From NCBI RefSeq assembly GCF_002845985.1, contig NZ_PDFK01000010.1:1-64000 (forward strand): a stretch of DNA of 64,000 nucleotides, read 5' to 3'. The stretch comes from Lysinibacillus fusiformis (lineage in GTDB: Bacteria; Bacillota; Bacilli; Bacillales_A; Planococcaceae). The position numbers were made by a program, and so were the translations under genes. The notes under the pieces were generated by a model. The model was not told the origin of the DNA. It did no database searches and was given only the letters and a program-made list of their open reading frames with translations. Below, one piece after another: positions 20,710 through 37,596 of the stretch (the first letter of the stretch is position 1; every line of letters starts with the position of its first letter).

Positions 20710-20773
20710 TAGCTAGCCATCATATCAATGCGGATTTTGTCTGCGATCATGGCAATGAATTCACTATTTGTTG
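20710..20773. repeat. attL: Left attachment site (copy of spo0A 3' end)
   Basis: A 64-bp perfect direct repeat of 36806-36869, beginning TAGCTAGCCATC and ending TATTTGTTG. It encodes the last 20 residues of Spo0A on the minus strand and here would end in TAA. The sequences diverge immediately on both sides. Confidence 0.92.
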
Positions 20774-20817
20774 AGAGTAAAAACGGTAATTTAATGTCTA
20801 AAACAGTTATACCACGT

Positions 20818-20846
20818 AAGTTTACCGTATATTCTATCGGTAGCCT
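20818..20846. repeat. Left arm-type repeat of the attachment region
   Basis: AAGTTTACCG, ATATTCT and TAGCCT occur in this order here and at 36748-36775, in the same orientation, 44 nt inside the left core and 30 nt inside the right core. In the circular form they would flank the core, as integrase arm sites do. Confidence 0.6.
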
Positions 20847-20915
20847 TCGCAGTTTTTCTCGACTTGTATTTACCGATAATATTACAATAGGAAATTGAGG
20901 AAGTAAACATATATT

Positions 20916-21182
20916 TCATTTTTTTAATAAACGATTAATGTCATCTAAGATTCTACGTCTTTCTAAGAATTCTATTAATGCACGTATACCTTGGTTTTTG
21001 CTATTTTTCTTTCTCGTAACTTTCACCATTATAAAATAGGCTTCCGCATCTAATTCCGAAAAATAGTTTTTCCCTTCACTATCGGTTGCATAATCCTCTA
21101 TAAATTCCCTTATATCTACTAAATGTTCCTGCGTCGTTCTAACATTATGCTGAACTAAAGACGATATAATTTTGACATTCAT
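20916..21182 (-). CDS. Small element protein of unknown function
   Basis: An 88-residue, mainly helical protein with a charged C-terminal half (RRRILDDINRLLKK). AAAAGGAG lies 8 nt before the ATG. It is the last gene of the element before the left end, downstream of the short recombinase. Such a place is often taken by accessory genes, but the sequence gives no function. I do not recognise it. Confidence 0.65.
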   Translation of the reverse strand: MNVKIISSLVQHNVRTTQEHLVDIREFIEDYATDSEGKNYFSELDAEAYFIMVKVTRKKNSKNQGIRALIEFLERRRILDDINRLLKK

Positions 21183-21475
21183 AAAATCTCCTTTTCCGAC
21201 ACCAGTGCTTTAATATTATCGCGATGTAAAAAACTATACATGACCGGTAAATATTAAGCAACCCTAAATATCGTTCAAACCCTTGATACGACTGCGTTAG
21301 AAGTGCGTCACCTTATTTAAAACATCACATTATTCTATTTGCGTTGATTTTGCGTTAAAAGCATCTTTATATAGGAAGAAACTCGAATTCAAATTTTACC
21401 TTGAGGATTTATAAATACTATGTAGAAGTAGCAATCGGCAGAAAGGCGGATTATAGTGAATGAGCTTTGGGGGCA

Positions 21476-21517
21476 AAAAAAGAACGACCAACAAACGAAT
21501 TGAATCGCTGTTGATCG
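21476..21517 (-). terminator. Terminator after the short recombinase
   Basis: Minus-strand CGATCAACA and TGTTGGTCG form a 9-bp stem with one G-U pair, followed by TTCTTTTTTTG, just past the recombinase stop. The rest of 21183-21522 shows no gene; it would hold the promoter of the 88-residue gene. Confidence 0.8.
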
Positions 21518-21522
21518 TGTTA

Positions 21523-22104
21523 TTAAAAGAATGAAACGTTTTTAATACTTTGTTTAATTCGTTCGTCAGTCATTCCGATGTAACGAAGCGTTGTCTTTTG
21601 CGAACTATGATTAAAGATTTCCATTAGCGTTGCTATGTCGTTAGTAGCGTTGTAATAAGTGTAACCGAACGTCTTGCGCATTGTGTGAGAACCAACGGAA
21701 TGATTGCCGATTTGATCGCCAGCAGCAATAATAATGCGATAAGCTTGTGTCGTGCTAATATGTGCGTCGCCTTTACGTGACGGGAATAAGTACGTCGTTC
21801 CTGGCGGCAATGTATCGACATAGTCTGCGATAGCTACCATTAGCTGATCGAGGTGGACAGTGCGTTCCTTCTTCGTCTTACCTTCCCGAATCTTAAACGA
21901 CGACTTCCCCTTTACTTGTTCGACTCTAAGCGCAACTAAATCCCCGCATCGTAAGCCGGTAGAAATGCCGAGCTTGAAAAGTAGCTGATTGCGTAGACCA
22001 AATTCCGTCCTACCTAACGCATCTAACATCTCACGTATTTCTTCTTTCGATTTTAACGGCTGCACATCGATTAACATGCCTTTTTTCTCGTTATGATTAG
22101 CCAT
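21523..22104 (-). CDS. Short tyrosine recombinase without arm-binding domain
   Basis: A 193-residue catalytic-domain-only phage integrase family protein. The active-site set is visible: Arg in STGLRCGDLVALR, Lys in EGKTKKER, HxxR in SHTMRKTFG, His in IFNHSSQKTT and the Tyr nucleophile in TLRYIGMTD. The start is ATG at 22104 with AAAGGAG 8 nt upstream; the longer frame crosses a repeat-rich leader. The N-terminal core-binding domain of normal integrases is largely missing. Similar short recombinases occur near terminase genes in Bacillus prophages. It may resolve multimers or process DNA rather than integrate the element. Confidence 0.85.
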   Translation of the reverse strand: MANHNEKKGMLIDVQPLKSKEEIREMLDALGRTEFGLRNQLLFKLGISTGLRCGDLVALRVEQVKGKSSFKIREGKTKKERTVHLDQLMVAIADYVDTLPPGTTYLFPSRKGDAHISTTQAYRIIIAAGDQIGNHSVGSHTMRKTFGYTYYNATNDIATLMEIFNHSSQKTTLRYIGMTDERIKQSIKNVSFF

Positions 22105-22121
22105 AATTACGCTCCTTTTTA

Positions 22122-22240
22122 ATGTATCCTTTTTATCGTTATATCTAAAATAGCATACATTCGATAGATGCGCAATTATCAAACGTCTATATATCAACGT
22201 TTTATATGTATCCTTTTCATAAAAAGCATACATTCGAGAG
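22122..22240. repeat. Duplicated leader with ATGTATCC / GCATACAT arms
   Basis: Two direct copies (22122-22168 and 22206-22240), each opening with ATGTATCCTTTT and closing with GCATACATTCGA. The ATGTAT and ATACAT ends are inverted within each copy. They lie just upstream of the short recombinase and could be its own binding sites or operators. Confidence 0.55.
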
Positions 22241-22423
22241 GTTGCCGATTGCCTACCTTTTGCATTAACGATATAGTGCGTTGAAACTGCGTCATATCGA
22301 ACCGTGGAGATTTGAGACACCCTCGCGCGCCAGCCCTGTGTGCCCGATGATTTCGGTATAAAACGGCATTATTACGTTTTAAGAACTGCGTCAACTTTAC
22401 GTCGTCTATCCGATAGTAGACAT

Positions 22424-22455
22424 AAAAAAAGGCGGACACACCCAAAGGTATGCCC
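22424..22455 (-). terminator. Terminator after the small-terminase-like gene
   Basis: Minus-strand GGGCATACC and GGTGTGTCC form a 9-bp stem with G-U pairs and a 4-nt loop, followed by GCCTTTTTTT. It separates the structural block from the short recombinase. Confidence 0.8.
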
Positions 22456-22479
22456 GTTAATTGTTACGTTAGTTCTGCG

Positions 22480-22920
22480 TTATAACGTTGATTGGCGTAG
22501 ACGTTCAATTTCCGCCTTGACCTTGTCGACATCCAATGTATCAGCAAGCGACTGTTCATGCGTTACTACTTCTCGCTTATCAACTAATTTACCATTGATC
22601 TTATAAAATAGTTCTAGCGCTTTAATCGCTGCCATTCCGTTGTTACTCGTTCCTTGAATAAGGCGGACTAACTGTGCGTCAGCCAGTGAACGGTAGCTAT
22701 CCAATTTTGTATCGCTAATAGCAGCCATATACTGAACAAACGCCGGCTCTTTACGCCACTCGTACAAAGTACGAATCCCGATTCCTAGTTCGCCAGCGAT
22801 TGATTCATACGTTGCCTTCTCACCTTTTGGCGCATATTCTCGTTCTAATAATAATTCCGCCGCTGTCATTTTAGCGGGCGTTAGCTTCGCCTTTAATCCG
22901 CCTAGTGTAAGTTTTGCCAT
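22480..22920 (-). CDS. Small-terminase-like helix-turn-helix protein (phBC6A51 homeodomain type)
   Basis: A 146-residue protein whose first half holds a homeodomain-like helix-turn-helix (ESIAGELGIGIRTLYEWRK, about residues 40-60). A helical segment follows, then a coiled-coil C-terminus (DVDKVKAEIERLRQ). This is the layout of the phBC6A51-type putative small terminase or DNA-binding proteins of Bacillus phages. No large terminase is found in the element, so if it recognises pac DNA it must work with a helper enzyme. Its start overlaps the upstream gene by 19 nt. Confidence 0.65.
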   Translation of the reverse strand: MAKLTLGGLKAKLTPAKMTAAELLLEREYAPKGEKATYESIAGELGIGIRTLYEWRKEPAFVQYMAAISDTKLDSYRSLADAQLVRLIQGTSNNGMAAIKALELFYKINGKLVDKREVVTHEQSLADTLDVDKVKAEIERLRQSTL

Positions 22921-23417
22921 TGTTTAATCTCCTTCATTTTCTGCGTTAAATATGCGTTATAATCTCCTGTGTAATCTAAGCGCTCCATCTCATTCCAATA
23001 AGGTTCATACTTATCAGCTACGACACTTGTAATATGGTTTGCGGCAAATAGCGGTGATCCTTTTTGTCCTGTAGCTTGACCTGTTATTTGACGTAAATAG
23101 TATTCCATCATCAAGCAATCGACACTAAGACTAATATCAACACAATGTTTAGCCACATCTAACGCCTCAATCCATCCGTTTAACTTTTCAGTTGCCTCTA
23201 ACACAAGCCATTCGTTTGTCTGTAATAAAATTTCCGCATACGACAACAAGAACGCCTTCACATCTTTTTCATATCGCTGATACACCTCGTATGCGAAGTA
23301 ATCACTAACCTTTTTCAAATCTAATACACAATACCCACGCTCAATATCTGCAGCACTCTTTTCTTCTTTTAAGCGTTTTAAGTCTGCGCGGATACGTTCA
23401 ATATCAAGAGTCGTCAT
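22902..23417 (-). CDS. Element protein of unknown function
   Basis: A 171-residue, acidic, helical protein. The start MTTLDIERIRADLKRLKEE is chosen because GAGGAG lies 8 nt upstream; an ATG five codons earlier is less well placed. The N-terminus is coiled-coil-like, and the centre has hydrophobic helices without a clear membrane span. It sits between the tape measure and the small-terminase-like gene and overlaps the latter, so a structural or packaging role is possible, but I recognise no family. Confidence 0.65.
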   Translation of the reverse strand: MTTLDIERIRADLKRLKEEKSAADIERGYCVLDLKKVSDYFAYEVYQRYEKDVKAFLLSYAEILLQTNEWLVLEATEKLNGWIEALDVAKHCVDISLSVDCLMMEYYLRQITGQATGQKGSPLFAANHITSVVADKYEPYWNEMERLDYTGDYNAYLTQKMKEIKQWQNLH

Positions 23418-23445
23418 TTCGTCACTCCTCATTTCGTTTTATTAG

Positions 23446-23480
23446 AAAAAGCAGGCACGCTATGAAAGCCGATGCCCGCC
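23446..23480 (-). terminator. Hairpin after the tape-measure gene
   Basis: GGCA and TGCC close an interrupted stem with inner CG pairs, followed on the minus strand by TGCTTTTTCT. It resembles the terminator at 22424-22455 in layout but the pairing is weaker. Confidence 0.5.
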
Positions 23481-23488
23481 CGTTTATC

Positions 23489-25765
23489 CTAACTTACTTG
23501 TACCATTTCTCTCTCTATTGCCTTCGCTAATTTGTACGCAATCACGTCGATATCAGCATCTTCGCGTATTACAATGCTATCAGCTAACTTCGCGATAGTG
23601 ATTCCGCCTCTAGTTTGTCCATTACGGTAAGCATCAGCCTCTTGGCGATTAAGCACGGCCTCACCCTTGTGTAAAACGGCTCTGTATCCGTCATACCTAA
23701 CGTTGTCTAAACCGTGATAGTGCGAGCCGTCCGGTTTACTGTTGCCTCCGCCTGGTATTAATTTCTTCGCCCAACTAACGGCTCCTGAACCGATTTTACC
23801 GATCCAGTCCGGCACTTTAATCTTGCCTAAAATCGATGCAAACTCTTTAAGATAGCCTGCTGCTGTACTAATCCAGCCACCTACCGTTTTGAATGCTGGA
23901 GTCAGTGCTTTTACGATTTCTGTCGCTGCTCCGAACGCTTGTGTAAATGCGCCCGCCAGAAATGCGACGAATGGTCCGATGATTGTGTCCCAAGCTAGAC
24001 GTAATACTGCGAAAGTTGCCCCGATAACAGCGCCAAATAGCTCTAACACAGGACCTACGACTGTCCAAAGCATCTGAAACGACTTCATAACGAAGTTAAT
24101 CGCAGGCGCTAATACGTTATTCCAAGCCAGCATCGCAATGTCGGCTACGATTTTTAGTGCGTTGCCCAAAGCGCCAAGTATCGGCTGCGCTGCGGTCCAA
24201 AGGGATTGAATAATAGGCACTACGTAGCCAACGATATTAGAAAAGACGCTCGTAATCTGCTCTTTCACAGTAGCAAAACGCGTTACAATAGCGTCAATTG
24301 CTTCAGGCGATATTAACGTTTCAAGTACGCCTCTGAATCCGCCTGTCTTGAACGCAGTCATTAATCCGGAAATCTTCGCCTTGATTCCGTCAACCGCCGA
24401 ATTAACTTTCGCTGCAATATCTGGCGGGAATATTGCGTTGATTAAGCCGCCTGTTCCGCCTGTCTTGAATGCGGACATTAGCGTTTTAACCTTGCCGACT
24501 ATGCCGTCGATAGCACCTCGGAATATCTCGCTATTATCGTATAGAGTTTTAAAACCAAATATAAGTCCGGTTATACCGGCTGCAATCAATCCGATTGGAC
24601 TTGCGACAAATGCTAAGGCCATTCCAACCAATTTGACGATTCCAACGACTGCTAGTATGGATCCAGCAACTAACGCAAATGTTCCTATTACCTTCGCTAC
24701 TTTGATGACTGATGGTCCAATCGTTTGCCATACTTGATACAACGACTTTACTACGCTAAATACCTTCGACAAACCATTGGCTGCTATCTTCACGAAGCTA
24801 TGCGCCTTGTTTTCGAGCTTTTCAAATGTCTTTGAGTTAACGAAGCCAATAAACTGGTCAAACAGCGGTTCAAACACCCGTTTGGCACTACTCTTAAATA
24901 CCGTTACAGCTTGCGAGAAAGTCATAGGCATATTACCGAATTTCTCCTCTATCTCGTCTGCAGCATTAAATAAGGATCGCTTAATTAAATCCGCCGTAAT
25001 AGTACCTTCTGAACTCATTTCCTTTAACGCTCCCATACTCACGCCTGCAGTATTTGAGATTGCTTGTGCTAATAAAGGTGCGTTCTCCATGATTGACCTA
25101 AATTCATCGCCTTGAAGCTTCCCTGACGCCATGGCTTGAGTTAATTGATACATACCCGATTCCATTTCCTGTTGTCCAGCACCACTGACCGAAAAGGATT
25201 TCGTCATCAATTCTGTAAACCTAATAGCTTCATCGTTACTTGAAAAAGCGTCCTTTGCAAGTAGGTTCAATTTAGCTACACTGGATGCCATTTCATCATA
25301 GGATGACCGGCTCCGTCGGGACGCCTTGAATATCTTATCTTGTAACTGTGATTGTGTTTGCAGTCCATCATTAATGTTAGCTAGGCGAGCGTTGATATTC
25401 GAATATGAGTCTGCAGCTTGAGTAAAATTGCTAAATCCACTCGCTAATCCTGATGCAGTCAAGAACGCACTTGCAATGCCGAGTATAGCAGTCTGAGTTC
25501 CTCCCAATGACGCGCTTAAGCCGTTAGTTCCAACGCGTAGACTATTAACGCGTGTAGCTAACGAGCCAGTAGCGTTTGTCGCTCGGCTGGTCTCCGATAC
25601 AAATCGCCCCATCGAATCGTGTAGCCGACCGTTAGCATCTCGATATAAGTTCGAACTTTGCGTAGCTGAACGAGTTGTTCGATTCATTCGGTCCATCATC
25701 TGTGTGATTCTTCTAAGACGTGAGCTACCTTGGTCTCTTATACGAAATACAGCAGTTAAATTCAT
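23489..25765 (-). CDS. Phage tail tape measure protein
   Basis: A 758-residue protein with the tape-measure N-terminal domain (KLQGDEFRSIMENAPLLAQA, about residue 220). Two or three hydrophobic helices follow near residues 350-410 (GSILAVVGIVKLVGMALAFV), then long Ala/Val-rich helices. The C-terminal signature is GLDNVRYDGYRAVLHKGEAVL (one residue over the quoted limit is omitted at the end in databases; the key part is HKGEAV). The repeated short motif LMSAFKTGG / LMTAFKTGG is visible. By the usual length rule this would set a tail of roughly 100 nm. The gene follows the gp10-like gene after 3 nt. It is the longest gene of the element. Confidence 0.92.
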   Translation of the reverse strand: MNLTAVFRIRDQGSSRLRRITQMMDRMNRTTRSATQSSNLYRDANGRLHDSMGRFVSETSRATNATGSLATRVNSLRVGTNGLSASLGGTQTAILGIASAFLTASGLASGFSNFTQAADSYSNINARLANINDGLQTQSQLQDKIFKASRRSRSSYDEMASSVAKLNLLAKDAFSSNDEAIRFTELMTKSFSVSGAGQQEMESGMYQLTQAMASGKLQGDEFRSIMENAPLLAQAISNTAGVSMGALKEMSSEGTITADLIKRSLFNAADEIEEKFGNMPMTFSQAVTVFKSSAKRVFEPLFDQFIGFVNSKTFEKLENKAHSFVKIAANGLSKVFSVVKSLYQVWQTIGPSVIKVAKVIGTFALVAGSILAVVGIVKLVGMALAFVASPIGLIAAGITGLIFGFKTLYDNSEIFRGAIDGIVGKVKTLMSAFKTGGTGGLINAIFPPDIAAKVNSAVDGIKAKISGLMTAFKTGGFRGVLETLISPEAIDAIVTRFATVKEQITSVFSNIVGYVVPIIQSLWTAAQPILGALGNALKIVADIAMLAWNNVLAPAINFVMKSFQMLWTVVGPVLELFGAVIGATFAVLRLAWDTIIGPFVAFLAGAFTQAFGAATEIVKALTPAFKTVGGWISTAAGYLKEFASILGKIKVPDWIGKIGSGAVSWAKKLIPGGGNSKPDGSHYHGLDNVRYDGYRAVLHKGEAVLNRQEADAYRNGQTRGGITIAKLADSIVIREDADIDVIAYKLAKAIEREMVQVS

Positions 25766-25768
25766 AAA

Positions 25769-26206
25769 CTACCACCCCGCTCTTCTAAATTCGGCACTTA
25801 GTTCTCTTTCAAGCCACTGCCGCCATTTTTCTTGATTATCTCTTGCTGGTTTTTCGAGAAATTTCTTTTCGCCAGTTACGGCTTTACCGTTCGATTCATG
25901 AATGTAATAAGCATAATTAAATCGTTTATCGTTATATTTTTTGCGTCCTGTCTTTTGAGATGTTAGTACGCTAGGACCTCTCGTTGAATTTGCGCCTGCT
26001 TCTACTCCAACTTCGTTTCCGCCCGAGAATATTTCAGTGTAAATCTGACGACGAAGATTACCCGTATCAATAGGTGCAACATCTACTGCCTCAGCACGCC
26101 AGTCATTTTTAATGTCTGTAAGGCCTATTTCTAACGCTCGGCCAATTGCTTCGGGCGATCTCGCTAATGCCTGGTTTAATTGAGATAAATCCAAATTAAA
26201 TTCCAT
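25769..26206 (-). CDS. HK97 gp10-like tail/head-tail joining protein
   Basis: A 145-residue protein of the gp10/tail-completion type: an N-terminal helix (SPEAIGRALEIGLTDIKNDW), the AVDVAPIDTGNLRRQI motif that marks the family, then strands and YAYYIHESNGKAV. The start MEFNLDLSQ is placed behind GGTGG; a GTG four codons earlier also exists. It overlaps the upstream gene and lies 3 nt from the tape-measure start. In complete phages it joins head and tail tube. Confidence 0.8.
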   Translation of the reverse strand: MEFNLDLSQLNQALARSPEAIGRALEIGLTDIKNDWRAEAVDVAPIDTGNLRRQIYTEIFSGGNEVGVEAGANSTRGPSVLTSQKTGRKKYNDKRFNYAYYIHESNGKAVTGEKKFLEKPARDNQEKWRQWLERELSAEFRRAGW

Positions 26207-26492
26207 ACGATTTTCCACCGTTCATATCACTGAGAATAAAATCAAACTCTTTGCAAACGCGTTTAAATTCCTCTTGGACCTCTTGTCCTTCTACTTGGAT
26301 AATTGCTAGATTGAGCGCCTCTAGTATCTTTCCTGCTGCTAATGACCACTGCGCATCACTTACTACAACCCGTAACAATAAAGGCTTAATATCGTTCGCA
26401 TAGCGAATGTAATCAGCACTAACTTTAAATTTGTGCTTATCGATATAGTTAACGGCACCGCCAGCTTTTGCTACTATTTGCTTACTGTTCAT
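26196..26492 (-). CDS. Element protein upstream of the tail genes
   Basis: A 98-residue protein beginning MNSKQIVAKAGGAVNYID, with mixed helix and strand content and no recognised family. GGGGGATATAAGG precedes the ATG. Its position and size fit a tail assembly chaperone or minor tail component, but I see no slippery site or motif that proves it. It overlaps the gp10-like gene. Confidence 0.6.
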   Translation of the reverse strand: MNSKQIVAKAGGAVNYIDKHKFKVSADYIRYANDIKPLLLRVVVSDAQWSLAAGKILEALNLAIIQVEGQEVQEEFKRVCKEFDFILSDMNGGKSYGI

Positions 26493-26541
26493 CCCTTATA
26501 TCCCCCTTCGTTTCTATGAATAGAAAAATGCACAACGTCGG

Positions 26542-26775
26542 TTAAACGTCATGCCTTTCGTTAATATTGCGATATTCCGCATTTGTGTCTGTCGTTACAT
26601 CTTCATCAACTAATAACCTTTTCGCTTTTGCGAACAATACACGGTCTGCGAGTCGTCCTGAACTTTGAGCTACAGTCGCAAATTGCACGAGTTCGTCAAT
26701 TGTTACTGGTTCACTTTTTAATACTTTTTTATCTAATGTTGAACGTAATACTTGATGATTTTTAGCTATTGTCAT
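26542..26775 (-). CDS. Small element protein
   Basis: A 77-residue, charged protein (LDKKVLKSEPVTIDELVQF near the N-terminus), with AGGTAGG before the ATG. Its start lies 2 nt from the stop of the upstream 229-residue gene, so it is co-translated. Unknown function. Confidence 0.6.
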   Translation of the reverse strand: MTIAKNHQVLRSTLDKKVLKSEPVTIDELVQFATVAQSSGRLADRVLFAKAKRLLVDEDVTTDTNAEYRNINERHDV

Positions 26776-26777
26776 AT

Positions 26778-27467
26778 TTATTTACCTACCTTTTTTGTTG
26801 TTTTTGGTGCTACCGCGATATAAAAATCCGCATCAGCATCTTGTTTAATCTGATCAATCTTGCCGGAATAATCTCTAAGCTCTCCAAAAAGTCTACTTAT
26901 TCCCGACGGAACACCCTGTCCACCAAAGAATTCAAAATACTTTGTTGGATGAATAACCCCTTCAATATAGCGAGTTCTGCCAGTAGTTTTATTTGCCTGA
27001 GACATTTCCTTCATTTCTGCATATAAAGGATCGTACTCATCTGAAATCCTATGATGATCGATTAATGCAGATTTCAGTAAATCTCTCGCTAAATCTAATT
27101 TTGCTTGCACAGTAGGCACGTACTCTGACTGAACTTTCGGACAAAACTCGCTACGATAGGTATTAACGACCTGTACCGGCGAAATTTCGACTACCGGCAA
27201 AGCCTGCATTGCAAGTTTATAATCTCGTTCTCTCCGGGCAATGACTTCTTTTTGCAATGTAATATCGTCGTCAATCTTTGCTAGCTCCGCTGTTTTATCC
27301 TCGCCCTTGCCTACCGATTCTGTAAAAGTATGTTCATACTGCTTCTCGAGTTCTCGCAATCGAGATTTAGCGTCATCCCATGCTTTCAAATACTCACTAA
27401 GCTTAGTTGATCGCTCTCTATGTTCCTCTTTATATTGGTCTAGTAGTTCAAAATTAAATATTTGCAT
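26778..27467 (-). CDS. Coiled-coil element protein
   Basis: A 229-residue protein with a charged coiled coil over residues 8-90 (YKEEHRERSTKLSEYLKAW and following). A less regular C-terminal part contains FEFFGGQGVPSGISRLFGEL. AAAAGGAG precedes the ATG, and it overlaps the preceding gene by 14 nt. It could be a scaffolding or structural protein because it comes just before the tail genes, but nothing in it is diagnostic. Confidence 0.6.
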   Translation of the reverse strand: MQIFNFELLDQYKEEHRERSTKLSEYLKAWDDAKSRLRELEKQYEHTFTESVGKGEDKTAELAKIDDDITLQKEVIARRERDYKLAMQALPVVEISPVQVVNTYRSEFCPKVQSEYVPTVQAKLDLARDLLKSALIDHHRISDEYDPLYAEMKEMSQANKTTGRTRYIEGVIHPTKYFEFFGGQGVPSGISRLFGELRDYSGKIDQIKQDADADFYIAVAPKTTKKVGK

Positions 27468-29943: not shown

Positions 29944-30417
29944 CTACGACAGTTCAATATCCTGACCACGTACCGGAATCAACTTATCAAAAGCAGCTTT
30001 TTTCTCATCGATACGCTTGACCTTAGCCAACTTCTTCTCGTAATTTGGAATCGCATCCGGGAATCGTGTGATAAACTCGACTTCATCATCAATCAACACA
30101 TTGAATGTATAAGCATGGCTACCACGCGAACCACGCTTAAAAATATTAATCATACCCAAATCACACAACGTTTGAGTGGCGGCAGATATAGTACCCCGAC
30201 TTATATTTAAATCTATTTCCATCGCGTCAAACGAAGGCCAACTGTATTGCCGCCCGATGTTATAGTTCTTTAACAAATACGCGTAAACTAACAAAGTTGT
30301 TGCTTTAAAATCCGGGTGTAACGTGTAAACGGTTAAAACAGCATTTTGAACAGCTACCCAACCGCCATCATAGTCGTAAGGCAATGCCTTTTGTACATCT
30401 TTTATAGTTTCCGTCAC
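29944..30417 (-). CDS. Winged-helix replication-initiation-like protein
   Basis: A 157-residue protein. Residues 40-110 (STLLVYAYLLKNYN-like stretch, then YSWPSFDAMEIDLNISRGTI and LCDLGMINIFKRG) match the winged-helix domain of phage replisome-organiser and RepA-N type initiators. The start is GTG with AGGAG 8 nt upstream. A possible iteron cluster follows directly. It could equally be a transcription regulator of the same fold. Confidence 0.65.
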   Translation of the reverse strand: MTETIKDVQKALPYDYDGGWVAVQNAVLTVYTLHPDFKATTLLVYAYLLKNYNIGRQYSWPSFDAMEIDLNISRGTISAATQTLCDLGMINIFKRGSRGSHAYTFNVLIDDEVEFITRFPDAIPNYEKKLAKVKRIDEKKAAFDKLIPVRGQDIELS

Positions 30418-30865: not shown

Positions 30866-31387
30866 TTATTTTAATTGGCGTAAAAGTCTTACATTATTAA
30901 TGATGTTTAAACGGCGCTGAATTTCCGCTAATCGTTCCACATACATTACAACGGCAATGCGCGCTACGGGAGATTGTACGCTTAATAATATTTGAGTAAT
31001 CTCTTCATATTCGTATTCTAGACTTGATAATTCACGATCGACTGTGCTACGGTCATTAAATTCAAGCATCGCTAACTCTGCGTATGCTACTGCGTCCTGT
31101 AACGAATATTGTTTACCGTGAATCATCGCGTAGCCTTCGCCTTCTTCGAGTAATTCAACGACAGTACAGCTAAATATTTGATTACCGCCTAATGATTCGC
31201 TAATTTCTACTAATGAAGTATCGCACTCTAAAAATGAGCCACCCGTTTGCTGCGCGTTATACGTGTAAAGGTTAAAAATTGTTGACGTCGGAATATCTTC
31301 TGCCGCTAAAGTTTGGAATACCTGTAACCCTGATACTGCCTCCGTGAATAAGTCTACTACTGAAATTTCGATGTTTACGTTTGTCAT
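30866..31387 (-). CDS. First gene of the main element operon, unknown function
   Basis: A 173-residue acidic protein starting MTNVNIEISVVDLFTEAVSG. The C-terminal third is coiled-coil-like (ELSSLEYEYEEITQILLSV). AAAGGGAG precedes the ATG. The open frame continues upstream into the repeat array, but that extension is a product of the repeats. Only ~75 nt separate it from the array, so the array is its leader or control region. Confidence 0.65.
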   Translation of the reverse strand: MTNVNIEISVVDLFTEAVSGLQVFQTLAAEDIPTSTIFNLYTYNAQQTGGSFLECDTSLVEISESLGGNQIFSCTVVELLEEGEGYAMIHGKQYSLQDAVAYAELAMLEFNDRSTVDRELSSLEYEYEEITQILLSVQSPVARIAVVMYVERLAEIQRRLNIINNVRLLRQLK

Positions 31388-31459
31388 AATAAAATCTCTC
31401 CCTTTTGTTTGTTTTGGTTTAGTTTTGTTATATGTGAACGCCGATTGATCGACGGAATT

Positions 31460-32560
31460 GCCTCCTACTATATACACCCCGTAAAATGATTCTTTTTGGG
31501 ACAAAATTTTAAAAATAATTCCTACTATATACTGGGCTGCAAAAATTAATTTTGTTAACACTTTTCATAAAAATTCTTCCCTACTTTATATAGCAGAGTA
31601 AAAATAAAATTTGATATCACGTTTAAAAAATTTCTCCCTACTTTATTTAGCCTACTAAAATCAAATTCTATTAACACTTTTGGAGAAAAGTTGAAAATTA
31701 AATCTCATACTATATATTCCCGAGTGAAAATTAATTTTGTTAACACTTTTCAAGAAAAAACTTGCTACTATATACTGCACGGTAAAATTTAATTTTGTTA
31801 ACACTTCCGATGAAAAATTTGCATCCTACTTTATATACCCGAATGAAAAACCATTTTCGGACATGTTTCCGATAATTTTCTTCCTATTACTTAATGCTCG
31901 GTAAAATTAAAAATCGATATCACTTTCCATAAAATTTTCGTTCTACTATATACTGCACACTAAAACGTCGTGTTTTGGGACGAATTGAATGAAAAACTTC
32001 TCCCTCACTTTGTATATACCGATTTTTCAATGACGTTTGGGACGAATTGAATGAAAAACTTGTTCTACTACTTAAGCGGACTAGAATATGTCATTTTGCA
32101 ACAAGAAGCATGAAAAACTTTTCTTACTATATACACCCAGTAAACTATTTCATTTTGGGACAACTTTTCGGAGAAATTTATTCCTACTGACTTATATCCA
32201 TAAAATTTCCGTTTGTCGCACTTTTATTAAAATTAATTTTCTTCCTCAATAAACTTTTAGCCACAAAAAATGAGTTTCGCACACTTTTACAAAATAATTT
32301 CCGTGACCTCCTTACTGAACTTATATACAGAAAAATTCCGTTTCGCACACTTTCTGAAAGCCTCTTTATGTCCATTTTGTGACAACTTGATAACTACCCT
32401 TTCTACTTATCTAATATAGAAAGATTTCATCATCCGTACACTTTTACGTAAATTAATTTCAACATCCGGTATCATTACGAGTTTGGTTTCGGACACCTTA
32501 AGCACCTCCTTACTTGATAATGCGGAGTAATACTGGATTCTCTTAACACTTTTAAATAAA
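31460..32560. repeat. Array of about 18 degenerate ~58-62-bp repeats
   Basis: Units open with CCTACTATATAC (variants CCTACTTTATAT, CTACTATATAC). A variable 5-7-nt stretch follows, then an AT dyad (TAAAAT...ATTTTG), a TTAACACTTTT or TTTGGGAC box and an A-rich tail. The best-conserved units are at 31463-31980; those past 32200 are more decayed. Neighbours differ at most positions, unlike a CRISPR. No convincing gene overlaps. It lies between a terminator (32734-32765) and the main operon. Origin, partition-like site, repressor array or RNA array are all possible. Confidence 0.8.
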
Positions 32561-32733
32561 ATAAGTCTAAATACCTACGAACTATATCGTAAAATATAGA
32601 TTACTATCGCCAGCGAATCGCTGATTTTCCGTTGTCATAGTGTGTTTTAAGGCGTTCTAACCTTCGGATGATAAATAATACTACTGCGATACTAGCACGC
32701 CTAAATCAACAGGTTTAGCAAAGGAAAACAAAA

Positions 32734-32765
32734 GGCTAGACACGTCATTCACCTCGCATCTAGCC
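32734..32765 (-). terminator. Terminator upstream of the repeat array
   Basis: GGCTAGA and TCTAGCC form a perfect 7-bp stem, followed on the minus strand by TTTTGTTTTCC. It ends the 119-residue gene and insulates the repeat array from it. Confidence 0.8.
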
Positions 32766-32776
32766 GCCATCGCAAC

Positions 32777-33136
32777 TTAACCCTCCGATAATACTTCCTC
32801 CAATGTTAACGTCATCTTAAAATCTCTTCTCCAGCGTTTGCTGACTTTCTTACGAATGTTTACCGACGTTTCAATATCCCCTTTTACATTACGTAGTGGA
32901 TTTAAAACAGCGTCCAATCTGGCCATTTCATCCTTCACTACTCGACGTTTTTTAAGTGTGTCTTGTAGTTGCGTAACGTAGCTTAAAGCGTATTCTTCCG
33001 ACGGATCGATTCCTTCTAAATCGTGATACATACTACTAATATACTTATCTAAACGAGACAACTCTTTTGTCAGCACGACCCGTTGAGCGTTTAATTCCGA
33101 CATGAACTCGTTAAATTTTGAATGATACTCACACAT
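32777..33136 (-). CDS. Coiled-coil element protein
   Basis: A 119-residue protein with a coiled coil over residues 5-80 (LNAQRVVLTKELSRLDKYI, LKKRRVVKDEMARLDAVL) and a basic C-terminal third (KKVSKRWRRDFK). GGGGGAG precedes the ATG. It lies between the repressor-controlled small gene and the repeat array. I do not recognise it. Confidence 0.6.
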   Translation of the reverse strand: MCEYHSKFNEFMSELNAQRVVLTKELSRLDKYISSMYHDLEGIDPSEEYALSYVTQLQDTLKKRRVVKDEMARLDAVLNPLRNVKGDIETSVNIRKKVSKRWRRDFKMTLTLEEVLSEG

Positions 33137-33169
33137 AAATTCTCCCCCAATCGTTTATTCAGGTACAAA

Positions 33170-33241
33170 TGACGTCATAGATAACGTCATCACACTTATT
33201 TAGAATGGAATAACGTCATTTTAAGCATGATTTAACGTCAT
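33170..33241. promoter_or_regulatory. Cluster of four AACGTCAT-type sites
   Basis: TGACGTCAT at 33170, and TAACGTCAT at 33182, 33211 and 33233, lie in the gap upstream of the 119-residue gene. Same orientation and spacings of 12, 29 and 22 nt. They look like binding sites for one regulator. The ACGT core is palindromic. Confidence 0.55.
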
Positions 33242-33323
33242 CCTGAGCAAATTCCGTATGATTCACCGTATCAAATTCCTGTATCGGCGGATGATACCGT
33301 AGTTTTCGGCTTGAAATTACGTA

Positions 33324-33572
33324 TTACGAAGCTAATCGATCAACTTGCGCTAATGCCAGGAGTAGTTGCTCCGCTGTATAGTTGCTGAGGTTTCCTATGA
33401 TATTCGCTAATTCCGCTGTGTAAACTAGATTGATATCCTGGTCATTAATCATTAACGTAGCTTCACATTCATCTGCGCAGGTAATTAGCTGCACACCTTC
33501 CAATAATTCCGTTGTCACCATCGTTACTGAGTAATCGTCATCTAAAGTTACGTGTTCAATAGTTTGATTCAT
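33324..33572 (-). CDS. Small acidic element protein
   Basis: An 82-residue acidic protein starting MNQTIEHVTLDDDYSVTM, apparently mixed alpha/beta. GGGAGG lies 8 nt before the ATG. It is the first minus-strand gene of the divergent switch and has an excellent promoter. A Cro-like or early control role would fit its position, but no helix-turn-helix is visible. Confidence 0.6.
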   Translation of the reverse strand: MNQTIEHVTLDDDYSVTMVTTELLEGVQLITCADECEATLMINDQDINLVYTAELANIIGNLSNYTAEQLLLALAQVDRLAS

Positions 33573-33609
33573 TTGTTAAACCTCCCAGTAATATTTATTT
33601 ATTAATATC

Positions 33610-33638
33610 ATAATATCGCATATACGATATATCGTCAA
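33610..33638 (-). promoter_or_regulatory. Minus-strand promoter with operator in the spacer
   Basis: TTGACG, a 17-bp spacer, then TATTAT read on the minus strand toward the 82-residue gene. The spacer holds ATATCG...CGATAT and overlaps ACGATATATCGT (33624-33635), so a repressor bound there would block RNA polymerase. Confidence 0.75.
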
Positions 33639-33644
33639 TATATA

Positions 33645-33673
33645 TTTACGGGAAAGTCTTAAAACGATATCAT
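33645..33673 (+). promoter_or_regulatory. Plus-strand promoter of the repressor gene
   Basis: TTTACG, a 17-bp spacer, then TATCAT, with a further ACGATAT half-site across the -10. It faces the XRE gene at 33707. Confidence 0.6.
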
Positions 33674-33706
33674 TATGAGTAAAATACTCTTGGAGGCGGA
33701 TTAATT

Positions 33707-33934
33707 ATGAAAAAAGTAAAAATTAAATTAGCAGGTATTTTATACGAACGTAGCATGACACAAGCAGAATTAGCTCATCTTTCTGGCGTCAGACCTAACG
33801 CAATAAGTAATTTATGCCGAGGTTACGTGGACCGTTTGTCAATCGATCATATTGAAAAAATAAGTAACGCTTTAGATTTAGAAAGTATAAGTGAGTTAAT
33901 CGATTTTGTAGATGTAGACGAGGAAAAAGCATAA
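33707..33934 (+). CDS. Cro/CI-type repressor of the element
   Basis: A 75-residue XRE protein of the small YozG-like class. The helix-turn-helix is MTQAELAHLSGVRPNAISNL (residues 18-38), followed by ISNALDLESISELIDF. GGAGG lies 9 nt before the ATG. It is divergent from the main operon, across an intergenic region with CGATAT-containing palindromes, so it is the likely element repressor. It has no protease-cleavage domain, so induction must come by another route. Confidence 0.85.
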   Translation: MKKVKIKLAGILYERSMTQAELAHLSGVRPNAISNLCRGYVDRLSIDHIEKISNALDLESISELIDFVDVDEEKA

Positions 33935-34034
33935 GATAAGAAATTGTCTCTTTTCACTCAATTAACTCACTTTGACCAAATATGTAAATTCATATAAAAT
34001 GAACTAATATATGGTTAAATAATGAGGTGTGATC

Positions 34035-34613
34035 ATGGAAAATTGGCGTAAGTTAAAAAAATGGCAAAAATGGACTGTTGGAATCATTGCATTTATATTA
34101 ATAGGAAATTTACTAGGTTTAATAATGCCAAAATCAAACAATGAAGAATTAAAACAAGATGAGACAGTAAAAACAGAGAGAATACGACCTGTTCAAGCAC
34201 AAGATACAGTAGAGAAAGCACAAAAAGAAATAGAATCTATAAAATATGAAAATCTATCACCAATTACCGAGGCTAAAGCGTTGGAGCTATTTGATCTTGA
34301 TAGCGAGACGAAACAATACCCCAAAGGTTTATTCGAATTTAAGGATGGAACACAAGAAACTGCTTCTTTTTACTCGTTTTTGGGAGGCGAGAATTTCTCG
34401 GAAGCAATCGCAATATTTTTAGACGGAAAATTAGCACGAGTTAAAGTGTGGGTAGAAAACGAATCGAAAGTATATGATGCACTTGCTGAATGGGGAGTTT
34501 CATCTAACGTAGAATATTCGCGGTTAAATAATTTCGTACAAGTTTATGAGTATGCTGTTGATGATCGTTTCTCTACGAATAATATAGCAAGATTGCCGAA
34601 TGAGTGGGACTAG
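34035..34613 (+). CDS. Single-span membrane protein of unknown function
   Basis: A 192-residue protein. Residues 12-32 (WTVGIIAFILIGNLLGLIM) form one membrane helix after a basic N-terminus, so the ~155-residue remainder should be extracytoplasmic. That part begins with a charged coiled-coil-like linker (DTVEKAQKEIESIKYE). It follows the repressor on the same strand, the place where lysogens often carry immunity or exclusion genes. That role is only a guess from position. A GTG two codons upstream is an alternative start. Confidence 0.65.
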   Translation: MENWRKLKKWQKWTVGIIAFILIGNLLGLIMPKSNNEELKQDETVKTERIRPVQAQDTVEKAQKEIESIKYENLSPITEAKALELFDLDSETKQYPKGLFEFKDGTQETASFYSFLGGENFSEAIAIFLDGKLARVKVWVENESKVYDALAEWGVSSNVEYSRLNNFVQVYEYAVDDRFSTNNIARLPNEWD

Positions 34614-34626
34614 TTACATAAGATAC

Positions 34627-34659
34627 AAAAAGCGCTCTAGTATATAGCTAGGCGCTTTC
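34627..34659. terminator. Bidirectional terminator
   Basis: AAAGCGC-CTAG and CTAG-GCGCTTT form the stem, with A-rich and T-rich flanks. It serves the plus-strand membrane gene and the convergent zinc-ribbon gene. Confidence 0.8.
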
Positions 34660-34663
34660 TTTA

Positions 34664-35023
34664 TTATAGTGATTTCTCTATTAATTGAATTACTTCATCA
34701 TGGTGCTTACCAAGTTTCTCATTAAATTCTTCCATGAATATATCGAATGGTTTATTAAATTCAGAGGTGAAATATTCAACTACACATTCTTTTGTGCAAA
34801 ATTCCATTGCATGATACTCCATAAATTCCATTGCATCTGGATGAGGATCAACAATATAGAACCAAGCTTTATTACCTTCTGAATCATATTTTACTAACGT
34901 ACTGCAATTTTTACAACGTCTTGCTCTTTTGTTAACTTGCTTTAGCTCAACTATTTCATCAATTGTAACTTTTTCTACATGATCTCTTTTATATTCTTCT
35001 ACTGATTTATACCCCAAAAACAT
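34664..35023 (-). CDS. Small zinc-ribbon protein
   Basis: A 119-residue protein starting MFLGYKSVEEYKRDHVE. Two Cys pairs, RRCKNCSTLV (near residue 40) and MEFCTKECVVEYF (near residue 78), form a likely treble-clef or ribbon zinc site. The rest is acidic and helical. AAAGGAG lies 8 nt upstream of the chosen ATG. It is transcribed alone from a good promoter. Function unknown. Confidence 0.7.
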   Translation of the reverse strand: MFLGYKSVEEYKRDHVEKVTIDEIVELKQVNKRARRCKNCSTLVKYDSEGNKAWFYIVDPHPDAMEFMEYHAMEFCTKECVVEYFTSEFNKPFDIFMEEFNEKLGKHHDEVIQLIEKSL

Positions 35024-35044
35024 ATTAATCACTCCTTTACATTT

Positions 35045-35072
35045 ATTATACAAATTTATATATTATTTCAAA
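35045..35072 (-). promoter_or_regulatory. Promoter of the zinc-ribbon gene
   Basis: TTTGAA, a 16-bp spacer and TATAAT on the minus strand, just upstream of the AAAGGAG ribosome site. Confidence 0.65.
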
Positions 35073-35114
35073 TAAGTATTTTGCAAATTTTACTTGATAT
35101 ATTTTTGTTATTCC

Positions 35115-35692
35115 ACCATCATGAAGCCAAGATAAGGAAAACGGCTTGGCGCAGATTTCGGTTGCCTACGTTAGAGACTCAAAGAGAATCAACTAACATA
35201 GACAGCCGATTTCATGAATCCTCAATTAAGGTATCCGTATTGTATGCCCCTGTTTAATCGTGATCCTTTCGAATCGATACACCTACTAATCTACTTCTGC
35301 CCCTGATAGTTAAGCTCGATTATGATTTGTCATAAAATGCGTTATGTGATGTACCCTGCGTGACCGTAGCCACTCAGACCTTCCACTCCGTACTGTCATA
35401 GCCGTACTCGCTATTCACACTCAAAGCGAAACAAGGAACGCTCTATGTTGAGTGCTAGACTTATTTATTGCAACGGCTAAGTCATAACCTTCCAGGGTTA
35501 TTTTTACGACGAATTGGCTGGCGAATCCTCGTCGCTACTGCTAAAAAAGGGTGCATTTAACAGGAGTTGCATCATCGAATTTTTTTCGATATAATGAACC
35601 CTAAGTAAACGCTATTGCTGGCAGGCAATTATTAGCGTAGATATTAAGTTGTAAAGTCGGTCGACGCTCCAACGTCAGCCGGCTTTTTTCTG
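35115..35692 (+). ncRNA. Candidate large structured non-coding RNA
   Basis: About 580 nt without a gene but full of helices. GCCAAG/CTTGGC closes near 35126-35150. A 16-bp stem joins 35159-35174 and 35193-35208 (14 pairs). CACTCAA-AGCG with CGCT-TTGAGTG lies at 35418-35454. ATAACC/GGTTAT (35484-35501) and CGACGA/TCGTCG (about 35507-35534) follow. AGGGT/ACCCT encloses TGCA/TGCA and TCGAA/TTCGA hairpins, then ACGCTA-TTGC/GCAA-TAGCGT near 35609-35637. The segment ends in an intrinsic terminator pointing right (35656-35689). Large ornate phage RNAs (ROOL, GOLLD) have this size and setting. A structured DNA origin is the main alternative. Promoter and 5' end are not defined. Confidence 0.55.
35656..35689 (+). 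terminator. Terminator of the structured segment / integrase
   Basis: GTCGGTCGACG pairs with CGTCAGCCGGC at 10 of 11 positions around a 6-nt loop, followed by TTTTTT on the plus strand. The minus-strand tail is poor (CTTTAC), so it mainly serves a rightward transcript, though it also lies just past the integrase stop. Confidence 0.8.
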
Positions 35693-35693
35693 T

Positions 35694-36665
35694 TTAAATA
35701 TCCAAATTTTCAAGTGGACTATGCTGTCGATACTTCTTCATCACTTCCTTATCAGCGAAATCAAGATAGATTTGCGATGTGACCTCAACGCTGGCATGTC
35801 CCAGTAATCGGGATAACGTTGCTAAATCACCACCGTTTATTAAATACCTCTTAGCGAAATTATTTCGAAGTAAGTGCGGCGTTATTTGAAGGCCAACGTC
35901 TCGACTCCGAAGTCTAAACGAACGCTCCACGCCTTCTATGCGATGTTTTGTACCTCGATTTGTCGGGAATAAGTAATTACTATCTGTATATCTATCTTTA
36001 AATGCAATCCATGATTTTAAGTGATTACGAGTTTTCTGCGAGAAATAAACAAATCGCTGTTTTCCCGATTTAGTCTTCCTTAATAAAATTGCGTTACTGC
36101 GTAAATCAATATCTGATGGCACCACTTCTAAAATTTCGCCAATCCTAGCACCGCTATCAAAGATTAATCGAGCTATTACCCAATCACGGTATTGATCGAA
36201 TTTAGTAACGTCGAAAGAACGGAAAAACTGTTTTAATTCATTATCTTCGAGCATAACTTTGATTTTTCGCTCGGGTTTAACATTCTTTAAATCCTTTAAC
36301 GGATTGCTACGAATAAGTTGCTCTGAATATAAATGCGAATAAAATGCTTTTATGTTACGTACATAATTCGCTATTGTCGTTTTACTTACCGGCTTACCAA
36401 AATCGACCCGTCGTTCTGGGTAGTTTACAGGCGATTCTACGGCACTTACAGTAAACTTACCTCTTTCTTCGATTGAACGAATATAAGCTTGAATATGCTC
36501 TGCCTTGACGCTTTTAACGTCATCTATTTCGAAGTTATCCAACAGGTACCTTGCGAATAATCTAAGCGTCTGTTCATACGATTTTAATGTTTTAGGCGAC
36601 AGACCTTTCGCTGAACAATCGAGCATGTAGCGATCAATTTCTACTAAAAACGAATTTAAAGCCAT
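35694..36665 (-). CDS. int: Tyrosine integrase of the spo0A element
   Basis: A 323-residue full-length integrase. The N-terminal SAM-like core-binding domain is CSAKGLSPKTLKSYEQTLRL. The catalytic domain has Arg in DSGARIGEILEV, Lys in TKSGKQRFVY, HxxR in HLLRNNFAKR, His in LLGHASVEVTSQ and Tyr in IYLDFADKE. It starts 140 nt from the right attachment core and reads inward. Its ribosome site (AAGGGGG) lies in the right arm of the hairpin at 36673-36714, and the hairpin U-run runs up to the ATG. It presumably drives integration at the spo0A 3' end. Confidence 0.93.
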   Translation of the reverse strand: MALNSFLVEIDRYMLDCSAKGLSPKTLKSYEQTLRLFARYLLDNFEIDDVKSVKAEHIQAYIRSIEERGKFTVSAVESPVNYPERRVDFGKPVSKTTIANYVRNIKAFYSHLYSEQLIRSNPLKDLKNVKPERKIKVMLEDNELKQFFRSFDVTKFDQYRDWVIARLIFDSGARIGEILEVVPSDIDLRSNAILLRKTKSGKQRFVYFSQKTRNHLKSWIAFKDRYTDSNYLFPTNRGTKHRIEGVERSFRLRSRDVGLQITPHLLRNNFAKRYLINGGDLATLSRLLGHASVEVTSQIYLDFADKEVMKKYRQHSPLENLDI

Positions 36666-36714
36666 AAAAAATACGCCCCCTTAATCAGTCGTAAAAAACT
36701 GTTTAAGAAGACGT
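36664..36714 (-). terminator. Terminator hairpin that also covers the integrase ribosome site
   Basis: A 17-bp stem (ACGTCTTCTTAAACAGT with ACTGATTAAGGGGGCGT on the minus strand, 16 of 17 paired with several G-U) and an 8-nt loop, followed by ATTTTTTATG. It can end spo0A transcripts, and in read-through RNA it hides the AAGGGGG ribosome site of int. Confidence 0.8.
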
Positions 36715-36747
36715 TATAATTAACGTAATATAACTGTTTTATATAAT

Positions 36748-36775
36748 AAGTTTACCGCATATTCTCCGCTAGCCT
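36748..36775. repeat. Right arm-type repeat of the attachment region
   Basis: Counterpart of 20818-20846, sharing AAGTTTACCG, ATATTCT and TAGCCT in the same order and orientation. Confidence 0.6.
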
Positions 36776-36804
36776 GTCGCCCACAAACGCAGTCATACCA
36801 ACGC

Positions 36805-37596
36805 CTAGCTAGCCATCATATCAATGCGGATTTTGTCTGCGATCATGGCAATGAATTCACTATTTGTTGGTTTGGATTTTAAGTGATGCACAGTGTAGCC
36901 AAACATCGACGAAATGGATTCATAATTGCCACGATTCCACGCAACCTCAATGGCATGTCGGATGGCACGTTCCACGCGAGATGGTGTCGTATTGAATTTT
37001 TTCGCGATTTCCGGATATAAAATTTTTGTCACAGATCCTAGTAGCTCAATATCCTCAAAGACCATTTGAATGGCTTCACGTAAATAAGAATACCCTTTAA
37101 TATGTGCAGGTACACCGATTTCTTTAATGATGGCCGTAATCGTGCTGTCTAATTGATGCTGATTTAATTTTTGAGGTACTGTCGGTTGTAACACGCTTGT
37201 CTTTTTCGGAAGTGTCGCCTTCTGTCCAGCACAATGTAGAATTTTTTGTACCAATTGATCGAATTCAAATGGTTTTAGCATGAAATAGGAAGCCCCTAAA
37301 TCGACCGCTTGTTTCATGACATCTTCCTGGCCAAAAGCTGTTAGCATAATGACTTGGATGGATGCCATTTTCTCATTTTGATACATCGACTCTAATACAG
37401 CTAAACCGTCAAGATGAGGCATTATTATATCTAGAAGTAAAATATCTGGTGTGAATTCCTCAAGCATTTGTAGACAAACTTTCCCATTTGAAGCAGTTGC
37501 AATAATTTCTATTTCGGCATGTCCTTGAAAATACTGCTCCATTGTTTTTAATAACTCACGATTATCATCTGCAATCGCTACTTTTACCTTTGTCAT
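36805..37596 (-). CDS. spo0A: Sporulation master regulator Spo0A
   Basis: A 263-residue response regulator. The receiver has IADDNRELL (acidic pocket), the phospho-acceptor Asp in [13 protein letters not shown] and Lys in YFMLKPFEF. The effector domain has the Spo0A-specific helix-turn-helix [25 protein letters not shown], and the C-terminus [18 protein letters not shown]. The start [12 protein letters not shown] follows AGAAGGAGG. The gene is complete even though a mobile element abuts its stop codon, because the attachment site recreates the last codons. It controls sporulation entry and probably itself through 0A boxes upstream. Confidence 0.97.
36806..36869. repeat. attR: Right attachment site inside spo0A
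   Basis: A 64-bp perfect repeat of 20710-20773, forming the last 20 codons of the intact spo0A gene. The base before it makes the stop TAG here and TAA in the other copy. Confidence 0.92.

Follow-up and report, generated by a model that had tools for sequence, protein, structure and literature searches.

A 16.1-kb phage-satellite-like integrative element at the 3′ end of spo0A in Lysinibacillus fusiformis

In a 64,000-nucleotide stretch of Lysinibacillus fusiformis DNA (assembly GCF_002845985.1, contig NZ_PDFK01000010.1, positions 1 to 64,000; hereafter the window), a second copy of the 3′ end of spo0A, the gene of the sporulation master regulator, stands about 16.1 kb away from the intact gene. 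This arrangement raises the question of what kind of DNA separates the two copies and why it is found at spo0A. The reading we prefer, with a probability of roughly 0.75, is that an integrative element resembling a phage satellite, about 16.1 kb long, uses spo0A as a neutral DNA address, is insulated from it by a hairpin, builds chimeric tails and carries a structured RNA in its mobility module. Features are listed in Table 1; genomes and loci are cited by our G and L numbers.

The original prediction described two perfect 64-bp copies of the spo0A 3′ end with immediate divergence on both sides, and both statements proved accurate. The copies (20710-20773 and 36806-36869) are 100% identical, and no further copies exist in the 4,578,155 bases of the genome (G000). 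In an ungapped comparison, the perfect run was exactly 64 bases, and in the inward block at the repeat edge 6 of 30 bases agreed. The divergence is abrupt, the copies ceasing to agree at the last base of the stop codon.

Comparison with related genomes, proposed earlier as the check, revealed an empty site in the same-species genome G007. The outer flanks of the element, when joined with one repeat copy, matched G007 with 1603 identities over 1604 columns and zero gaps, and the repeat sits at the junction. Neither a repeat pair without a difference in intervening DNA nor a junction outside the repeat was encountered. Window positions 14001-20773 are colinear with G007 at 99.7% identity, and spo0A is directly followed there by the DUF342 gene, the glycerophosphodiesterase gene and a 69-amino-acid (aa) open reading frame (ORF); the first two are thus normal neighbors of spo0A, as had been supposed.

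The spo0A stop codon is TAG in the window and TAA in G007, and the native TAA now lies beyond the left copy, displaced to 20709-20711, so the stop codon of the window strain comes from the element. Together, the repeat, the G007 junction and the exchanged stop place the crossover inside the repeat and indicate that the 3′ end of spo0A is now contributed by the element. The gene itself is whole, in agreement with its predicted role as attB. Measured from stop to repeated stop, the element is 16,096 bp long. Direct-repeat att sites, a regenerated gene and an empty site with its junction in the repeat, as expected of a site-specific element, were all found, and integration at spo0A is certain. 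Putative arm-type integrase sites occur as a direct repeat near both ends (Table 1) and as the inverted sequence TAAAACAGTTATA at 20799 and 36728. No publication on spo0A as an integration site was found in a literature search that included the available parts of PMC6907783, PMC10747680 and PMC10538166, with subscription journals mostly outside its range.

A complete tyrosine integrase had been noted beside the right copy, and its start was located 140 bp from that copy. Relatives of this integrase were detected in 10 of 32 genomes of the genus (E 1e-30) and in 20 of 261 genomes of the family (E 1e-40), the latter comprising 21 loci in 7 of 19 genera. All 21 loci adjoin spo0A or, in the case of the second G008 locus, a displaced 3′ fragment of it, on the same strand. 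In the class sample, 32 of 398 genomes (window included) reached 1e-40. The site was checked for loci from 29 of the 31 other genomes (the check did not extend to G349, G428 or two additional loci of G535), and seven of these genomes carried the integrase at spo0A (G588, G293, G537, G560, G594, G553 and G432). BLAST identity to the window integrase was at least 43% in these seven and at most 37% in the other 22, among which G359 is the one strong profile match away from spo0A (3e-94; 37% in BLAST).

Thirty integrase loci were retrieved from IMG/VR; in 16, identity reached 42% or more across most of the protein length, and six of the 30 stretches include a piece of the spo0A 3′ end. Full-size phages were also represented. 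According to Pfam searches of ten proteins per record, G622 (39.7 kb) and G624 (33.5 kb) encode large terminase (TerL), portal and capsid proteins, and G633 (59.8 kb) encodes TerL and portal. Their integrases (records of L166, L168 and L177) are 42-51% identical to that of the window. Among the three, only G633 has a spo0A 3′ fragment beside the integrase gene (int); for G622 and G624 the integrase itself points to spo0A as the probable site. Against sequenced phages, identity was below 60% in all 313 records and 24-34% in the 20 listed. An integrase family dedicated to spo0A is well supported by these comparisons. Named records at the site are Lysinibacillus odysseyi MF12, Lysinibacillus sp. 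ZYM-1, and the remnants in L. xylanilyticus DSM 23493 and Solibacillus palustris MA9.

Stop-to-stop lengths were obtained in the same way for 17 insertions. The six elements that have both ends and whose integrase is intact (71-100% identity) yielded 16,096 (window), 16,063 (G013), 16,313 (G008), 17,413 (G059), 16,557 (G157) and 16,454 bp (G146). With G024 (15,682 bp), G162 (15,935 bp) and G235 (14,757 bp), nine of the 17 fall between 14.8 and 17.4 kb. Outlying sizes were 13,745 bp in G019 (broken integrase), 18,684 bp in G260 (truncated integrase) and 23,080 bp in G143, and short insertions of 2.1-4.5 kb were observed in G021 (2.1 kb), G149 (2.4 kb), G058 (4.0 kb), G259 (4.5 kb) and as the second insertion of G008.

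A protein of the tape-measure cluster was present in all six intact-integrase elements, and one of the small terminase (TerS) cluster in five of them. Major head proteins were identified in G157 and G024, with homologues in G146, G162 and G019; TerL and portal in G024, with homologues in G162 and G019; TerL in G059; a tail protein in G146; and a protease-capsid fusion in G235. This cargo fits satellites that would carry different virion parts. In the window element, neither TerL, portal, major capsid nor lysis genes were found among 20 ORFs compared with Pfam and 26 compared with PHROGs, and no defense genes were found among 10 element ORFs by PADLOC. The element DNA gave no megablast-level match in 50,697 sequenced phage records, and TerS gave one match to sequenced phages, at 35% identity. 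The helix-turn-helix (HTH) gene at 33707 (+) is divergent from the gene at 33572 (-). The 88-aa ORF next to attL is a candidate excision factor, by inference only.

Between the window and G059/G157, identity is 86-87% for the integrase, 74-78% for Spo0A and 63-64% for DUF342. Similarly, window positions 21221-23484 are 92% identical to G013, compared with 82-83% for the host DNA left of the element and 85% for the int-spo0A block. As the integrase and the TerS end exceed the host genes in identity, transfer of the elements is the reading we adopt. The tape measures are mosaic, with identities of 28, 88, 89, 54, 40, 38 and 50% in successive 150-column blocks between the window and G008.

Several side observations were made on the sister elements. 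In G008 (L070/L081), two insertions stand in tandem at spo0A, each with its own spo0A 3′ copy: one is an element of 16.3 kb, the other a remnant of 3.4 kb whose integrase belongs to a different class. The duplicated 3′ end equals the host's own over 157 bp in G013 (L057:3010-3162) and 156 bp in G008 (L070:2782-2934), which is longer than the 64 bp of the window, though the two hosts differ from each other there; this suggests gene conversion or long co-residence. The G024 element carries a Pistol ribozyme between its integrase and the large RNA described below (L007:1174-1251 (-); 66.5 bits, gathering score 34.5), and the G013 element carries a cobalamin riboswitch (L004:35-214 (-); 120 bits), an odd cargo for a satellite-like island.

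These data also bear on a different explanation, namely that the element is a decaying prophage that has lost its head and lysis genes and whose integrase survives by chance. Tail genes without head genes, the plainly decayed loci at the same site (G021, G149, G058 and G259) and the related integrases of full-size phages would all agree with it. However, the main ORFs of the window element are open, including that of the 758-aa tape measure, which contains no stop; the six intact-integrase elements all measure 16.1-17.4 kb and share their tape measure (six of six) and TerS (five of six); and the TerS end is closer to G013 than the host DNA is. The recurring size and gene order disfavor random decay, and we regard a remnant as unlikely.

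In the window, the gap separating spo0A from int contains a terminator-like hairpin with a stem of about 17 pairs; a T run and the int start codon come next. In an alignment of seven distinct sequences, 92.9% of cells were paired, compared with 44-56% when the structure was slid, and 7 of 18 pairs showed two-sided change. For a second class of hairpin (class II) the consensus was weaker, at -10.7 kcal/mol and with two-sided change in 5 of 18 pairs. The scan took 26 of the 30 spo0A-type genome loci, and a hairpin near the int start was observed in all 26, compared with 3 of 22 loci of other integrases. This distribution suggests that the hairpin may insulate spo0A and int from each other.

A model (R1) was built from the seven hairpin sequences, which stand for four genomes of the genus and four others of the family. 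In 32 whole genomes of the genus, its best 26 matches, all above 43 bits, fell between spo0A and DUF342 in 22 genomes; the best match anywhere else scored 40.1 bits. Model R2, from the other hairpin class and with G005 among its sequences, added G001, G005, G023, G025 and G029 at 34 bits or more, bringing the number of genomes with an int-type hairpin to 27 of 32. Weaker R1 matches were present at the right place in G002, G003 and G009 (29-34 bits), and G016 gave a doubtful R2 match (E 0.079). In the interval of G011 no hairpin match was found, and a short integrase-profile match (7.5e-6) was present.

Because 27 of 32 genomes have the hairpin and only 10 of 32 an integrase match, many hairpins are read as scars. 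The one in the left flank of the window scored 49 bits with R1 and E 0.006 with the integrase profile, and it gave a blastn match to the right end of G013, shared with the repeat. By eye, integrase-like codons follow in this scar, which is shared by G007 and the window (MDRYMLDCSAK), and in that of G017 (IERYML..KGLAPKTL; profile E 0.0016). Two R1 copies occur in one interval in G017, G030, G008 and G000. The stacked hairpins of G017 (L067:934-992 and 1927-1985) and G030 (L075:982-1040 and 3881-3938) were read as scars of successive insertions. We read the whole as repeated visits by elements, the last of which would have left its hairpin as the spo0A terminator.

According to the main rival to the scar reading, the elements picked up and copied an old host terminator of spo0A, the supposed scars being the ancestral terminator. 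Genomes lacking the integrase do have hairpins immediately after spo0A, as this would require. It accounts poorly for the two copies within one interval in four genomes, for the integrase-like codons behind the G007/window and G017 hairpins, and for the position of the hairpin on the element side of the core; we therefore hold it to be rather improbable overall, although it may apply to individual genomes.

The original prediction further suggested that the link to spo0A may be regulatory, and this part gained no support. Under such a scheme, integrase expression would be tied to spo0A transcription, and the element would stay or leave with the sporulation decision. At the spo0A loci checked, int is indeed the next downstream gene on the same strand, and attenuation is conceivable, with antitermination opening the hairpin. 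The same-strand position is, however, also expected from simple integration at a 3′ end, and the hairpin looks built to stop read-through and to hide the Shine-Dalgarno sequence of int. TGTCGAA, which we take to be the seven-base core of the 0A box, occurred 8 times in the window against 8.36 expected, showing no enrichment; its single copy in the element lies inside the tape-measure gene, and no exact copy was present between element genes. With Spo0A itself unchanged, regulation of this kind appears very improbable. A sporulation switch in general is unlikely, and a skin-like one was rejected, as the spo0A ORF is unbroken and Spo0A is 100% identical in the empty-site strain.

In the approximately 600 nucleotides directly behind int (35085-35700), the int strand lacks any ORF reaching 60 aa. 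Homologues, adjacent to int or up to about 0.7 kb off, were found in 11 other spo0A-site genomes (G018, G013, G008, G024, G157, G059, G146, G162, G058, G019 and G143), in IMG/VR L167 and in G400, where the integrase is not at spo0A. Profile searches added L169, L168 (short match), L204, L218, L231, L241, L251 and L258; five of the last six have a nearby integrase relative, of only 22-25% identity in BLAST. A pattern scan for the RNA returned 72 IMG/VR stretches, with six strong RNA matches, and loci noted for the RNA include L056:576-1253, L064:16925-17585 and L096:17160-17846.

Ten sequences shared a common fold of 83 pairs on the int strand, with 95.0% of cells paired against 35-42% in slid controls; as the structure was derived from the same alignment, this comparison is somewhat biased in its favor. 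Two-sided change was seen in 35 of the 83 pairs, compared with 19.4 in shuffles. In all ten sequences, a helix loop pairs with a downstream strand (alignment columns 53-56 with 70-73, four pairs, 100%), and this pairing crosses nested helix 5, suggesting a pseudoknot. A plus-strand reading was considered and overturned: on the minus (int) strand, 105 G-U pairs stood against 4 A-C, while on the plus strand the counts were 22 and 19, and folding energies were lower on the int strand in ten of ten sequences.

No Rfam 15 match reached its gathering score in window positions 20000-38000, and none appeared at E up to 5 in 34950-35800. In the RNA stretch of ten relatives no match was found at E up to 1, and none of four matches in those relatives was to GOLLD or ROOL. 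A distant-mode DNA search with the RNA found no match in the 50,697 sequenced phage records, and the literature search, a weak test in this case, found no description of it. No other part of the element is as novel as the RNA.

The proposed course of events is as follows. The integrase would recombine attP, on a presumed circle, with attB, the last approximately 21 codons of spo0A; as attP would carry the same 3′ end, Spo0A would be rebuilt letter for letter, stop codon included. In the integrated state seen here, int directly follows spo0A in the same orientation and is preceded by a hairpin resembling an intrinsic terminator, which would end the spo0A transcript and keep read-through from making integrase. 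The presence of TerS, a tape measure and a neck-like protein, with TerL, portal, capsid and lysis genes not found, leads us to infer that a helper phage mobilizes the element and that chimeric tails are built with its own tape measure. The RNA is probably part of the int transcript, seems to belong to the mobility module and, as a guess, may act during lytic growth or excision. Most likely, spo0A was chosen as a DNA address that is conserved among spore formers and not as a means of controlling sporulation.

When weighing this reading, certain observations have to be set against it. Tape-measure and neck genes without head genes would fit a decayed prophage as well, the replication initiator shows weak DnaD/O-like PHROG matches only, and no second tape-measure-like protein was found in the strain's own genome, so this route revealed no helper phage. 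The hairpin is not exclusive to spo0A, since three other integrases also have it (L140, L150 and L155; by eye, one beside a tRNA-like sequence and one near a clpP-like gene), and hairpin-before-int may be a general insulator design; in the spo0A-type loci L092 and L139, it lies further upstream and does not clearly cover the Shine-Dalgarno sequence. With the window query at E 1e-3, the RNA was not found beside G202, G259, G235, G242, G260, G149, G021, G005, G030 and G001, nor beside the seven class-wide spo0A-site integrases, many of the spo0A-type loci without a match being remnants or covered for 1.5 kb only. Model R3, of part of the RNA, matched 4 of 398 class genomes under strict filters (window, G400, G510 and G557), the last two without an integrase relative within 1.5 kb on each side. 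A satellite life of the element is nevertheless likely, as judged from its gene content.

A wider and tentative proposal, which we put forward as possible only, is that the spo0A-specific integrase and a hairpin that insulates it and doubles as the terminator of the target gene form a mobility cassette shared by many phages and satellites of Bacilli. It would often include a new class of ornate RNA of about 600 nucleotides with a covarying pseudoknot, which would also travel with distant integrases and act in the element life cycle as GOLLD and ROOL may. No description of such a spo0A-integrase/hairpin/RNA cassette was found in the literature.

The sporulation master regulator gene thus emerges as a standing dock for satellite-like elements and at least one full-size phage in several families of Bacilli, and Lysinibacillus holds an apparent fossil record of repeated visits. 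This offers a ready system for studying how mobile DNA coexists with sporulation, how satellites use a tape measure of their own, and what role the conserved RNA behind the integrase plays; the RNA deserves its own study.

Table 1. Features of the spo0A-site element and its borders (window coordinates).
Feature	Position	Strand	Evidence or remark
Apparent scar of an older element outside attL	20546..20709	-	int-type hairpin 20594-20650 and int N-terminal codons
attL	20710..20773	-	64-bp copy of spo0A 3′ end; the native TAA, displaced, adjoins it at 20709-20711
Putative arm-type integrase site TAAGTTTACCG, near attL	20817..20827	+	direct repeat with 36747-36757
88-aa ORF next to attL	20916..21182	-	shares a cluster with four other elements
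Second, short tyrosine recombinase (domain beginning near residue 72)	21523..22320	-	phrog_216 8.5e-53
Small terminase subunit (TerS)	22480..22920	-	phrog_7344 4.9e-16
176-aa ORF	22902..23432	-	96% identical in G013
Tail tape-measure protein, 758 aa	23489..25765	-	PF20155 1.8e-51; phrog_1068 4.3e-101
Tail-completion/Neck1-like protein, 149 aa	25769..26218	-	phrog_5 1.7e-10; PF04883 below its cut-off
229-aa protein, predicted helical	26778..27467	-	homologues in G013 and G008; low-confidence model, mean pLDDT 60.7
HTH regulator, 81 aa	28445..28690	-	PF01381 8.8e-9
Replication-initiation/DnaD-like protein, 157 aa (weak match)	29944..30417	-	phrog_186 2.6e-5
HTH regulator, 75 aa, divergent from leftward genes	33707..33934	+	PF13443 1.1e-11; phrog_3 1.3e-10
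194-aa ORF	34029..34613	+	no family in Pfam or PHROGs
129-aa ORF	34664..35053	-	no PHROG match
Large structured noncoding RNA, about 600 nt, directly behind int	35085..35700	-	covariation; no Rfam match
Tyrosine integrase (int), 323 aa, spo0A-type family	35694..36665	-	PF00589 1.6e-24; phrog_1 7.8e-51
Terminator-like hairpin between spo0A and int	36663..36721	-	3′ arm holds int Shine-Dalgarno (AAGGGGG); U-run reaches int start
Putative arm-type integrase site TAAGTTTACCG	36747..36757	+	direct repeat with 20817-20827
attR	36806..36869	-	64-bp copy, end of intact spo0A; element-supplied stop TAG
spo0A, host gene and attB	36805..37629	-	intact 274-aa ORF; protein 100% identical in G007

Among known systems, Staphylococcus aureus pathogenicity islands and other phage-inducible chromosomal islands (SaPI/PICI) are about 15 kb long, with an integrase at one end, a divergent HTH regulator and a small terminase near the other end. 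The window element resembles them in its size near 15 kb, terminal integrase, divergent HTH gene, TerS near the other end and in that no TerL, portal or lysis gene was found in it. It differs in its spo0A attB, its tail tape measure and neck-like protein and the large RNA behind int. Capsid-forming PICIs (cf-PICIs) are approached by the same-site sister G024, with homologues in G162 and G019, through its TerL, portal and major head protein; in contrast, the ORFs compared in the window element yielded no capsid, portal or TerL gene.

The large phage RNAs GOLLD and ROOL (available parts of PMC7567579 and PMC12286853) are similar to the window RNA in that the latter is hundreds of nucleotides long, structured, noncoding and located in phage-like DNA. 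In contrast, the window RNA sits behind an integrase gene and, at the thresholds used, matched neither of the two Rfam models.

The available part of PMC10747680 describes sporulation intervening elements, namely skin in sigK, SPbeta in spsM, vfbin, and yin in yabG. These likewise consist of phage-like DNA located at sporulation genes of spore-forming bacteria. The window element, however, interrupts no gene, uses a tyrosine integrase at a 3′ end, and its excision would leave the Spo0A protein unchanged.

For the PLE satellites of Vibrio cholerae, the available part of PMC12987554 reports that their own tape measure builds chimeric tails, and it notes tmp genes in cf-PICIs as well. As tape-measure replacement has already been shown for PLE, a satellite-encoded tape measure is not new here. 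The window element, too, is satellite-like with its own tape measure, while any sequence kinship to PLE would be conjectural and its tail hijack is a prediction. The element is of a known kind, and the spo0A-targeted variant is new.

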